A stretch of DNA of 44,193 nt from Acidobacteriota bacterium (GTDB lineage Bacteria > Acidobacteriota > UBA6911 > RPQK01 > JAJDTT01), in assembly GCA_028874215.1 (NCBI GenBank), contig JAPPLF010000041.1, forward strand, positions 1 through 44,193, written 5' to 3'. Position 1 is the stretch's first letter. Each line of letters opens with the position of its first letter. Positions 2,516-5,725 of the stretch are shown here, in pieces. The notes beneath the pieces are model-generated. The model searched no databases. It was not told the origin of the DNA and saw nothing but the letters and a program-made list of their open reading frames with translations. Made by a program: the position numbers and the translations under genes.

Positions 2516-2558
2516 GGGGAGATCCGGCTTCAATCCGACTGCGGTCGGTTATTTGGCA

Positions 2559-2631
2559 TGGCGGTGGAGGGACTCGAACCCCCGACTCGGCGGATATGAG
2601 CCGCCTGCTCTGACCACTGAGCTACACCGCC
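2559..2631 (-). tRNA. tRNA with CAT anticodon (elongator Met or Ile2)
   Basis: A full cloverleaf can be folded: 7-bp acceptor stem GGCGGTG/CACCGCC, D arm GCTC/GAGC, anticodon stem GGCGG/CCGCC around loop CTCATAT, and a T arm with TTCGAGT. The discriminator base is A and CCA is not encoded (the next bases are TGC). The anticodon is CAT. The G1-C72 pair excludes the usual initiator tRNA. The acceptor stem looks like elongator tRNA-Met, whereas the short D loop AGTGGTCA resembles the minor isoleucine tRNA whose C34 is modified by TilS. I cannot decide between the two by eye. Confidence 0.93.
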
Positions 2632-2642
2632 AACGGCGATCG

Positions 2643-2712: not shown

Positions 2713-3972
2713 TCAGACGGCGGCCGACGCCACGATGGGCGTTTCTTCCCGGGATTCGTACCACTCCCGGAAGACCATGAGGTTGGGGCGCATCACCGTC
2801 GAGATCCGGGCGCTTCCCAGGAAGACGTCCTGGCTCTTGTAGCCGTTCCCGGTGATTCCGACCACCACCGATTCGTCGGGCCGGATCCGGTTCTGGCGGA
2901 GAAGCTTGATGGTGACGGCCAGAGTGGTTCCTCCGGCCGGTTCGGTGAAGACGCCCTCGGTCTCCGCCAGCAGCCGAATGGCAGCCAGGATTTCCTCATC
3001 CTCCGCCATCTCTCCCCAGCCGCCGGACTGGCGGACGTCCTGCAGCACGTAGGGGCCGTCGGCCGGGTCGCCGATGGCGATGGCCTTGGCCACCGTGTTC
3101 GGTTTCTCGGGGTTGATGTAGTCGAGACCCTGATGGAGGGCCCGGATCACCGGCGCGCAACCGGCCGCCTGGGCGCAGTGGATCTTGGTGTGGCCCTCGG
3201 CCCAGCCCAGGTGCACCACCTCTTGGAGAGCCTTGGCGACGCGGGGAAGCAGGGTTCCTCCAGCCGTGGGAAGGACCAGGTGGTCGGGAAGCCGCCAACC
3301 CAACTGTTCCACGATCTCGAAGCCCATGGTTTTGGCCCCTTCGGTGTAGTAGGGCCTGAGATTGACGTTGACGAATCCCCAGCCGTAGTGGTCGCCGATT
3401 TCGGCGCAGAGGCGGTTCACGTCGTCGTAGTTGCCCTCCAGTCCCACGAGTTCGGGCCCATGGATGAGCGAGCCGAGAATCTTGCTCGGTTCCGTCGTTT
3501 CGGGAATGAAGATGAGGCAGGGAAGACCGGTCCGGGCGCAGTGGGCCGCCACCGAGTTGCCGAGATTGCCGGTGGACGCACAGGAGAAGACCTCGTATCC
3601 CAACTCCCTCCCCCGGCTCAGGGCGATGGAGACGACCCGGTCCTTGTAGGAGAAGCTGGGATGATTGACCGAATCATCCTTGAGATAGAGTTCCTTCAGG
3701 CCCAGCCGGCGGGCCAGCCGGTCCGCCCGGATCAGGGGAGTGTAGCCGGAGTGGAATCCGGTCACCGGCGCTCCATCCAACGGCAGCAGCTCCCGGTAGC
3801 GCCATAGATTCGGGGGTCGGGTCGCGATCTTGGCGGGATTCAGATTGGCCCCGATCTTCTCGTAGTCGTACAGGACCTCCAAGGGCCCGAAGCACTCGAG
3901 ACAAATGAAACTCCGATCCGCCGGGTAGCGTTGGTCGCACTCCTTGCAGCCCAGACCCGTCAAGTAACTCAT
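2713..3972 (-). CDS. thrC: Threonine synthase with N-terminal zinc ribbon
   Basis: PLP enzyme that converts O-phosphohomoserine to threonine. The 419-residue protein begins with a zinc ribbon (C9, C12, C24, C27), has the PLP lysine K110 in SFSYKDR, and a phosphate-binding glycine loop LPTAGGTLL. ATG at 3972 is chosen because AGGGAAGCAGG lies directly upstream and the zinc ribbon then starts at residue 9; the longer open frame would include leader RNA. The zinc-ribbon form is shared by threonine synthases of several phyla and by cysteate synthase, so the exact substrate is inferred from overall similarity. Upstream are a promoter, a SAM-I riboswitch and a terminator, all on the same strand, so the gene appears to be controlled by S-adenosylmethionine. 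No other gene follows it closely; the tRNA gene is 81 bp downstream. Confidence 0.9.
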   Translation of the reverse strand: MSYLTGLGCKECDQRYPADRSFICLECFGPLEVLYDYEKIGANLNPAKIATRPPNLWRYRELLPLDGAPVTGFHSGYTPLIRADRLARRLGLKELYLKDDSVNHPSFSYKDRVVSIALSRGRELGYEVFSCASTGNLGNSVAAHCARTGLPCLIFIPETTEPSKILGSLIHGPELVGLEGNYDDVNRLCAEIGDHYGWGFVNVNLRPYYTEGAKTMGFEIVEQLGWRLPDHLVLPTAGGTLLPRVAKALQEVVHLGWAEGHTKIHCAQAAGCAPVIRALHQGLDYINPEKPNTVAKAIAIGDPADGPYVLQDVRQSGGWGEMAEDEEILAAIRLLAETEGVFTEPAGGTTLAVTIKLLRQNRIRPDESVVVGITGNGYKSQDVFLGSARISTVMRPNLMVFREWYESREETPIVASAAV

Positions 3973-4017
3973 CCTGCTTCCCTTTCCCTTGTCCCGGCAG
4001 GACGGATCGCCAAACAA

Positions 4018-4048
4018 CAAAAAAGCCCTTTCCCGCTGAGAAAGGGCT
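4018..4048 (-). terminator. Intrinsic terminator of the riboswitch expression platform
   Basis: Read on the minus strand, AGCCCTTTCTC and GGGAAAGGGCT form a strong stem (AGCCCTTTC paired with GAAAGGGCT) followed by TTTTTTGTTG. It sits about 14 nt downstream of the SAM aptamer and 45 nt before the thrC start. The 3' side of aptamer P1 is preceded by GAAAG (4072-4068), which could pair with CTTTC of the terminator to form the alternative antiterminator. Confidence 0.85.
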
Positions 4049-4062
4049 CCCACGCAACCGGG

Positions 4063-4173
4063 CTTATCTTTCAGACAAGCGGGCGAACCCGTCTGCGGGA
4101 TTTGGCACCGTACCATTCAAGGGCCGGTTGCCGTGACATCCTAGGGCCCGATCCCTCCGTCACTCTGGATAAG
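4063..4173 (-). promoter_or_regulatory. SAM-I (S-box) riboswitch aptamer
   Basis: The minus strand carries the S-box hallmarks in order: P1 strand CTTATCCAGAG (from 4173), GGAGGGATCGGGCCC, CGGCAACCGGCC, GGTGCCAAATCCCGC, and CTGAAAGATAAG closing P1 (ending 4063). P1 pairs CTTATC with GATAAG. In this class SAM binding stabilises P1 and lets the downstream terminator form, so high SAM should lower expression of the gene behind it, here thrC. The aptamer begins about 7 nt after the predicted transcription start. S-boxes usually precede methionine or SAM genes, so the target is unusual. Confidence 0.92.
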
Positions 4174-4186
4174 GACAAGAAATGGG

Positions 4187-4216
4187 ATAATAGGTTGGCG
4201 TCCACGTTTCTGTCAA
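4187..4216 (-). promoter_or_regulatory. Promoter of the riboswitch-thrC transcript
   Basis: TTGACA (4216-4211) matches the -35 consensus exactly, and TATTAT (4192-4187) follows after an 18-bp spacer. Transcription would start near 4180, just before the SAM-I aptamer. It reads away from tilS, whose start codon is 82 bp away on the other strand. Confidence 0.75.
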
Positions 4217-4297: not shown

Positions 4298-5725
4298 ATG
4301 GACCTCTTCGTATCGGCAGTCAGGGACACCGTCAAACGGTTTTCGTTGCTGAAGCCGGGTGATTCGGTGCTGTGCGCGGTTTCGGGCGGTCCCGATTCGA
4401 TGGCGCTGCTCCAGGTCCTCAGGGAACTGAGCCGCGAGTGGCCGCTGTCGCTGTCGGCCCTCCACGTGAATCATGGCCTTCGAGGCGCCGAGTCCGATGC
4501 GGACGCAAGCTTCGTCGGAACGCTCTGCCGGCAATTGGAGGTCCCGCTCCACGTCCGGTCGCGCCCGCTGAAGCCGGGGCCGGGTACGAATCTTCAGGAT
4601 CTGGCCCGAAGGGTCCGCTACCGGTTCCTCTCCGAGACCGCGTCAGCCGCCGGGTCCGTCGTGGCCACCGGGCACAACCTGCAGGATCAGGCCGAGACCT
4701 TTCTGTTGAAGCTGGCGCGCGGCGCCGGCCCCACGGGTATGTCGGGGATCTTCCCGGCGCGCGAGATTCTTCCTCACGGGCCGGAAGCGAGCCCGGTCCG
4801 CATGGTCCGCCCGTTGCTGGAGAGGGACCGGGAAGAAATACTGGGGTTTCTCGAACGCCGGGGACAGCCCTACCGGGACGATTCCAGCAACCGGAATCTC
4901 CGCTACGATCGCAACTGGGTCCGCCACCACCTGATTCCCGACTTGCGCAGGCGCCTGAACCCGGCCCTGATTCCGACCCTGGGACGGACCGCCCGGCTCT
5001 GGCAGGAGGTGGCGGAGTTCCTGGAAGACGAGGGGCGCAAGGCCTTCCGGTCGTGCCGGGAGACGCCGTCGATCCGTTCCGGCGAGGTCAGGCTGAGGGT
5101 CGCGGCGCTCCTCGATCTGGCGCCGGCCCTCAGGAAAGAGGTGGTCCGGCATGCAGTGAGAACCTGCAAGGGGGATCTCCGGGACCTGGGCCTGGAGCAC
5201 GTCGACCGGGTACTGGATCTGGTCTCCGGACGAAGCGGGAGACGGGTCCACCTGCCGGGAGAAATTGAGGCCGGCCTCGAATTCGACCACCTGAGACTCG
5301 CAAGGAGGGTTCCGCCGGTCCGGTTCAGCCACCGGCTTCCGGTCCCCGGGGAGGTGGCCATTCCGGAAACCGGCCGGCACGTGGTCTGCCGCCGGATGAC
5401 GGCGCCCGCTGGAGATTCGGGTCAAACTCTGCTTCGTTTTCCAGGGTCCAGCCTGACGGTCCGGAACCGCGTGGCGGGGGACCGGTACCCGGGTCCGGGC
5501 GGGAAGAAGCTCAAGCGGCTCTTCCTGCAGCACCGCATCCCCAGGAGCGCCCGGGATTCCCTGGTGGTGGCGGAGGACGATGGCCGCCTGCTCTGGGTGG
5601 AGGGTCTTCCCGCGGACCCCAGGGTCCGCGCCTGTCCGGGCGAAAGGGAGGCGGTCCTGATCAAGGTACGTGACGGTCCTCACGCCGGGTCGAGGGAACC
5701 CGGCGCGAGTCGGCATCGTGTATAG
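4298..5725 (+). CDS. tilS: tRNA(Ile)-lysidine synthase
   Basis: Converts C34 of the CAU anticodon of minor isoleucine tRNA to lysidine, changing both its codon reading and its aminoacylation. The N-terminal PP-loop motif SGGPDS is at residues 29-34, followed by HVNHGLRG near residue 50 and the GHNLQDQAET segment, all typical of TilS. The 475-residue length fits the long form with a C-terminal tRNA-binding domain. ATG at 4298 gives the normal N-terminus, although the ribosome site is weak. It is divergent from thrC and lies 119 bp before ftsH, the same tilS-ftsH order seen in many bacteria. A CAT-anticodon tRNA that may be its substrate is 1.7 kb away. Confidence 0.93.
   Translation: MDLFVSAVRDTVKRFSLLKPGDSVLCAVSGGPDSMALLQVLRELSREWPLSLSALHVNHGLRGAESDADASFVGTLCRQLEVPLHVRSRPLKPGPGTNLQDLARRVRYRFLSETASAAGSVVATGHNLQDQAETFLLKLARGAGPTGMSGIFPAREILPHGPEASPVRMVRPLLERDREEILGFLERRGQPYRDDSSNRNLRYDRNWVRHHLIPDLRRRLNPALIPTLGRTARLWQEVAEFLEDEGRKAFRSCRETPSIRSGEVRLRVAALLDLAPALRKEVVRHAVRTCKGDLRDLGLEHVDRVLDLVSGRSGRRVHLPGEIEAGLEFDHLRLARRVPPVRFSHRLPVPGEVAIPETGRHVVCRRMTAPAGDSGQTLLRFPGSSLTVRNRVAGDRYPGPGGKKLKRLFLQHRIPRSARDSLVVAEDDGRLLWVEGLPADPRVRACPGEREAVLIKVRDGPHAGSREPGASRHRV

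Follow-up and report, generated by a model that had tools for sequence, protein, structure and literature searches.

The DNA analysed here (the window, 44,193 nucleotides of an Acidobacteriota contig) carries a SAM-I riboswitch leader in front of a gene annotated as thrC, which raises the question of why a SAM switch should stand before a gene named for threonine synthesis. The original prediction, entitled a SAM-I riboswitch controlling threonine synthase, offered two ways out: that the protein serves another purpose in methionine or sulfur metabolism, with cysteate synthase as one pointer, or that the switch adjusts the branch in a direction that would not be expected. Examination of the leader, of the encoded protein (P0001) and of related loci indicates that P0001 is very probably an acidobacterial MetM under SAM feedback, its activity and its switching being predictions from sequence. 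The paradox of a SAM switch on thrC stems from the name of the gene.

The leader and its predicted switch

A promoter, an S-box aptamer, a U-tailed terminator and a thrC-like gene had been predicted, and all four are present in that order on the minus strand (Table 1), the predicted span of 3972-4216 agreeing with the 5' edge of the promoter at 4216 and with the ATG at 3972. The promoter combines TTGACA (4216-4211) and TATTAT (4192-4187) over an 18-nt spacer; one TTGACA-18-TATTAT site was found against 0.1 expected in shuffled sequence. A covariance search with Rfam RF00162, proposed from the outset as a check on the aptamer, gave 79.4 bits (E 3.3e-17) over the complete model, to be compared with a gathering score of 44.4 bits. 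The aptamer ends 88 nt before the ATG, and no further match to RF00162 was found in the source genome (5.7 Mb, 97.5% complete). Among 18 sequences of related leaders, 12 of the 26 predicted helix pairs are changed on both sides, and the conserved core and helices of SAM-I are kept by covariation.

Table 1. Features of the riboswitch unit and of its immediate surroundings in the window.
Feature	Position	Strand	Basis
Sigma-70-type promoter of the leader	4187..4216	-	11/12 consensus bases; 0.1 sites expected by chance
SAM-I (S-box) riboswitch aptamer	4061..4175	-	RF00162, model 1-108 of 108
Intrinsic terminator of the expression platform, stem-loop then T-rich stretch	4021..4051	-	Terminator scan, hairpin folding
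metM-like gene, annotated thrC (P0001, 419 aa, PLP fold type II)	2713..3972	-	ATG 3972, stop ends 2713
tilS-like gene	4298..5725	+	
tRNA-Met (CAU)	2558..2632	-	

The terminator hairpin by itself has a predicted energy of -20.8 kcal/mol. Two terminator-like sites were found in the 800 bases scanned, against 0.6 expected, and equivalents of the terminator are present in the 12 related leaders examined. When the window leader was folded before the 3' arm of the terminator, 10 of the 13 bases of the 5' arm were hidden with P1 free and 2 with P1 locked, a modelled behaviour that fits an OFF switch. The corresponding antiterminator pattern, in which the 5' arm of the terminator is hidden when P1 is free, was predicted in only 6 of the 12 leaders, so that the antiterminator is tentative; thermodynamic folding of these 12 leaders found no single antiterminator common to all. 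We propose that the leader RNA would start near 4179 and fold into the SAM-I aptamer. At high SAM, the predicted binding of the ligand would stabilise P1, the terminator would form and transcription would stop before the gene; at low SAM, the leader would refold, RNA polymerase would read through and MetM would be made.

Two other genes flank the riboswitch-metM unit. The tilS-like gene is divergent from it, and a divergent tilS-like neighbour recurs at L003, L006, L008, L012, L013, L015 and L018, which are loci of relatives from the genus and from family f5. The tRNA-Met gene follows on the same strand as metM, approximately 80 nt after its stop codon.

The encoded protein and its substrate-phosphate loop

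The name given to P0001 has a basis in profile scores, since it passes the thrC model TIGR00260 with 247.8 bits (cut-off 167.1); it narrowly misses PRK08197 with 293.8 bits (cut-off 303). The title of the original prediction stands to that extent, but the function that it names is probably wrong. TIGR00260 is passed by all MetM-type proteins and does not discriminate them from ThrC. In a maximum-likelihood tree of 86 proteins, built by a quick search that returned long-branch warnings, a branch with a support of 100 places 59 MetM-like proteins (P0001 and 58 relatives, those of cyanobacteria and Nonomuraea included) on one side and 27 threonine synthases on the other. The phylogeny that had been suggested for the thrC product consequently sets it in a clade apart from threonine synthases, and its kinship with cysteate synthase, the other possibility raised, fails by score (TIGR03844, 63.7 bits for a cut-off of 324.9).

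This last score also bears on the wider idea that P0001 is some other sulfur enzyme of the same fold, for example a cysteine synthase that depends on a carrier, or a cysteate synthase. Such a role would suit the N-terminal Cys4 zinc-ribbon-like segment, whose four cysteines are invariant in close relatives, and the CysO-like carriers of related loci described below. It is nevertheless hardly credible given the cysteate synthase score, a regulatory signal that is SAM and not cysteine, and neighbours that are hom or aspartokinase and not serine genes.

A total of 24 alignment columns separate 89 MetM-like rows from 24 ThrC rows. In the substrate-phosphate loop, P0001 carries N204, R206 and Y209, and N, R and Y occupy these positions in 89/89 MetM-like rows, whereas S, N and R are found in 24/24 ThrC rows. 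In the Thermus threonine synthase the loop reads N154-S-V-N-P-H-R160, with numbering taken from the alignment, and S155 is equivalent to N204, N157 to R206 and R160 to Y209, with no exceptions. Because S155 and R160, which we take to help hold the substrate phosphate in threonine synthase, are replaced without exception, the phosphate site of the MetM-like clade seems to have been rebuilt, not lost. The motif N-x-N-L-R-P-x-Y provides a simple sequence signature telling MetM-like proteins from ThrC.

Pathway genes and gene neighbourhoods in relatives

Forty genomes were searched, the window's own included. Orthologues of P0001 occur in 13 of them with 50-100% identity, and a sharp gap separates these from the next best match at 37%. 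A SAM-I riboswitch lies directly upstream of the orthologue in 12 of the 13 genomes, a pairing far beyond chance, and the recurrence of the aptamer-thrC arrangement that had been proposed as a check is thereby found. Since the other SAM-I riboswitches of these relatives stand in front of homoserine dehydrogenase (L007), a MetX-like gene (L004) and MetY/MetB-type enzymes (L010, L016, L017), the element acts in this group like a regulator of methionine genes.

Other arrangements were observed among the relatives. At L004 (1-1437, minus strand), the SAM-I-controlled MetX-like frame enters the start of a Cys_Met_Meta_PP domain, through a genuine fusion or as the result of a frameshift. One bin, G016, carries two riboswitch-metM units (L012 and L018), and no strong Cys_Met_Meta_PP enzyme was found there. 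In two relatives, SAM-I aptamers at L019 (1501-1603, minus strand; 65.0 bits) and L020 (1501-1605, plus strand; 63.4 bits) lie before ATPase-like ORFs that carry P-loop-like motifs, and not before methionine genes; the ORF of L020 had no match in Pfam. L019 also harbors a SAM-I/IV aptamer (2906-3025, minus strand; RF01725, 50.4 bits).

The source genome encodes ThrB (contig C108, 236.9 bits) and a second, canonical thrC (C66, 279 bits), to which P0001 is only about one third identical. MetX and MetA, considered as a hidden route, gave no match in profile searches of this draft genome, nor did HcyBio, and its one Cys_Met_Meta_PP enzyme could act in transsulfuration. MetX or MetA was found in 1 of the 13 genomes with MetM and in 19 of the 27 without it (Fisher p 0.0004, kinship ignored), absences being read from profile searches of draft genomes, with some bins incomplete. 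Several family-f5 genomes with MetM (G007, G015 and G016) have no strong Cys_Met_Meta_PP enzyme either. The HcyBio/DUF39 route gave no match in the 40 genomes and was detected in three control genomes.

These data weigh on the simplest reading of the annotation, in which P0001 makes threonine like any other threonine synthase and the switch, at high SAM, reduces threonine synthesis or spares O-phosphohomoserine for methionine. A canonical ThrC encoded in the source genome, the lack of matches to MetX, MetA and HcyBio there, the separate clade, the changed phosphate-site residues and the sulfur-carrier and sulfur-assimilation neighbours of related genes make this very improbable, despite the annotation with its TIGR00260 score and the use of the same substrate by threonine synthases.

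With a subfamily profile (A1), 80 loci spread over many phyla were reached, and a covariance model derived from 18 aptamers was used to search them for riboswitches. A riboswitch is present in 28 of the 80, always upstream and on the same strand. Approximately 20 loci, mostly from Binatota-type bins, show the order riboswitch, ThiF-family E1, metM-like gene and carrier. A ThiS-family carrier ending in GG is encoded directly downstream in 57 of the 77 loci with enough sequence; the carrier downstream of the metM-like gene is a 91-residue ThiS-family protein that ends in AGG. Among the neighbours in the 80 loci are a ThiF-family E1 (41), often upstream of the metM-like gene, a NIL-domain protein (34), homoserine dehydrogenase (20), TusA (18) and sulfite reductase (14); JAMM peptidase, ATP sulfurylase, aspartokinase and ApgM also recur. 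At L115 (6596-6766) and L119 (6793-6908), a SAM-I riboswitch is followed by homoserine dehydrogenase and the metM-like gene, and sulfite reductase is encoded further upstream. Nitrospirota have a TGSFKDRG-type ThrC in the same cluster as a MetM-like gene, which suggests that these two enzymes share the supply of O-phosphohomoserine.

The main rival of the MetM reading is a bifunctional P0001 that would form both threonine and homocysteine from O-phosphohomoserine, with the SAM switch tuning the shared enzyme. It owes this rank to a Microcystis member of the family, 51.6% identical to MetM, which made threonine from O-phosphohomoserine in vitro and apparently does not fully function as MetM in the cell (PMC12172450). 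P0001 itself passes TIGR00260, and no second ThrC was found in G007, a 91%-complete bin. We consider a bifunctional enzyme unlikely, however, as another thrC-type match over the cut-off is present in 40 of the 41 wider genomes with a MetM-like gene, as well as in the source genome, and the substrate-loop residues are fixed differently from those of ThrC.

In the window, metM has no metO-type carrier gene beside it; the carrier matches of the source genome are on other contigs. The best of these is a fused protein of 475 aa, with ThiS (7-91), ThiF (109-344) and rhodanese (376-466) domains, whose gene lies approximately 100 bp downstream of a JAMM peptidase gene, on another contig than metM. In the sister genome G028, a carrier is encoded directly downstream of metM, as expected of metO. 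The JAMM peptidase next door is suggestive because the di-glycine is internal in the fused protein. The fused carrier system, which may serve MetM, may also serve other sulfur acceptors.

Proposed route and comparison with known systems

In the route that we propose, MetM would be a PLP enzyme derived from threonine synthase, predicted to form homocysteine from sulfur and O-phosphohomoserine, the latter supplied by Hom and ThrB. The sulfur would most likely be the C-terminal thiocarboxylate of a MetO/CysO-like carrier, and the JAMM peptidase could expose the di-glycine end of the fused carrier or release the product. Homocysteine would lead to methionine and then to SAM, which would in turn lower the homocysteine supply, and threonine would be made by the separate canonical ThrC encoded elsewhere in the genome. 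As P0001 is likely a homocysteine-making enzyme, the odd combination of switch and gene reduces to ordinary feedback control, and with SAM lowering homocysteine supply an unexpected control of threonine is not needed. Of the two ways out offered by the original prediction, another role for the protein within methionine or sulfur metabolism is strongly supported in the form of MetM, though not in that of cysteate synthase, and the unexpected balancing of the branch is superfluous. More tentatively, and with somewhat more doubt than confidence, we suggest that in Acidobacteriota a self-charging carrier-E1-rhodanese donor, opened by a JAMM peptidase, feeds the riboswitch-controlled MetM, and that one phosphate-loop arginine rearrangement marks the change from threonine to homocysteine across many thrC-annotated phyla.

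The MetM reading removes an apparent paradox in branch-point control. A widespread family of thrC-annotated genes looks mislabelled, and many such genes in Acidobacteriota, Binatota, Nitrospirota, Omnitrophota, Planctomycetota and cyanobacteria probably function in methionine synthesis. Predictions of methionine auxotrophy would change for uncultured bacteria missing MetX, MetA and MetY. The riboswitch here acts as an annotation tool, the regulator revealing the pathway of a misnamed enzyme. The MetM/MetO kind of system was already known; the breadth of the family and the fused sulfur donor are added here. A literature search on SAM riboswitches, Acidobacteria and methionine found nothing, and the passages covered from the literature on S-box regulons held no precedent for a SAM-I-controlled thrC, one such paper placing thrC, in the part covered, under T-boxes and MetR only.

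Systems in which a carrier thiocarboxylate, an E1 and a JAMM peptidase feed a PLP enzyme include HcyS/HcyF/HcyD with MetY in Wolinella and CysO/CysM/Mec in Mycobacterium. The logic is the same here, but the PLP enzyme is a member of the threonine synthase family, and O-phosphohomoserine is predicted as its acceptor. A protein thiocarboxylate pathway is named as such in PMC5764234.

The closest known system is that of Streptomyces, in which, according to a citing paper (PMC12172450), Hasebe et al. (2024, doi 10.1128/aem.01247-24) identified MetM as a ThrC-like homocysteine synthase using O-phosphohomoserine; passages of the citing paper mention a SAM riboswitch upstream of S. albulus metM and identify metO as a sulfur-carrier gene. 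The assignment of P0001 to MetM was made through these passages and through Nonomuraea and cyanobacterial proxies. In Nonomuraea gerenzanensis, a SAM-I aptamer (RF00162, 68.7 bits), a MetM-like gene and a MetO-like gene stand in a row, and the MetM-like protein is 48.6% identical to P0001. As far as those passages describe S. albulus metM/metO, the acidobacterial system shares with it a ThrC-like enzyme, an upstream SAM riboswitch, a ThiS-type carrier in the genome and ThrB supplying O-phosphohomoserine; it differs by its host and by a carrier that is fused to E1-rhodanese and encoded on another contig, beside a JAMM peptidase. The Microcystis gene has no riboswitch (PMC12172450) and the metM of the window has no carrier beside it, so the arrangement varies within the family.

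Compared with classical S-box regulons, the unit has the same RNA family, a terminator-type platform and predicted feedback on methionine supply, but its target is metM and not metY, metB, metE, metK and the like. Finally, P0001 shares with canonical threonine synthase (TIGR00260; Thermus 1uim) the fold, the PLP lysine motif SFKD/SYKD and the likely substrate, whereas its clade has N-x-N-L-R-P-x-Y-x-EG where threonine synthase has N-S-x-N-P-x-R-x-EG, and KDRVV in place of KDxGM.
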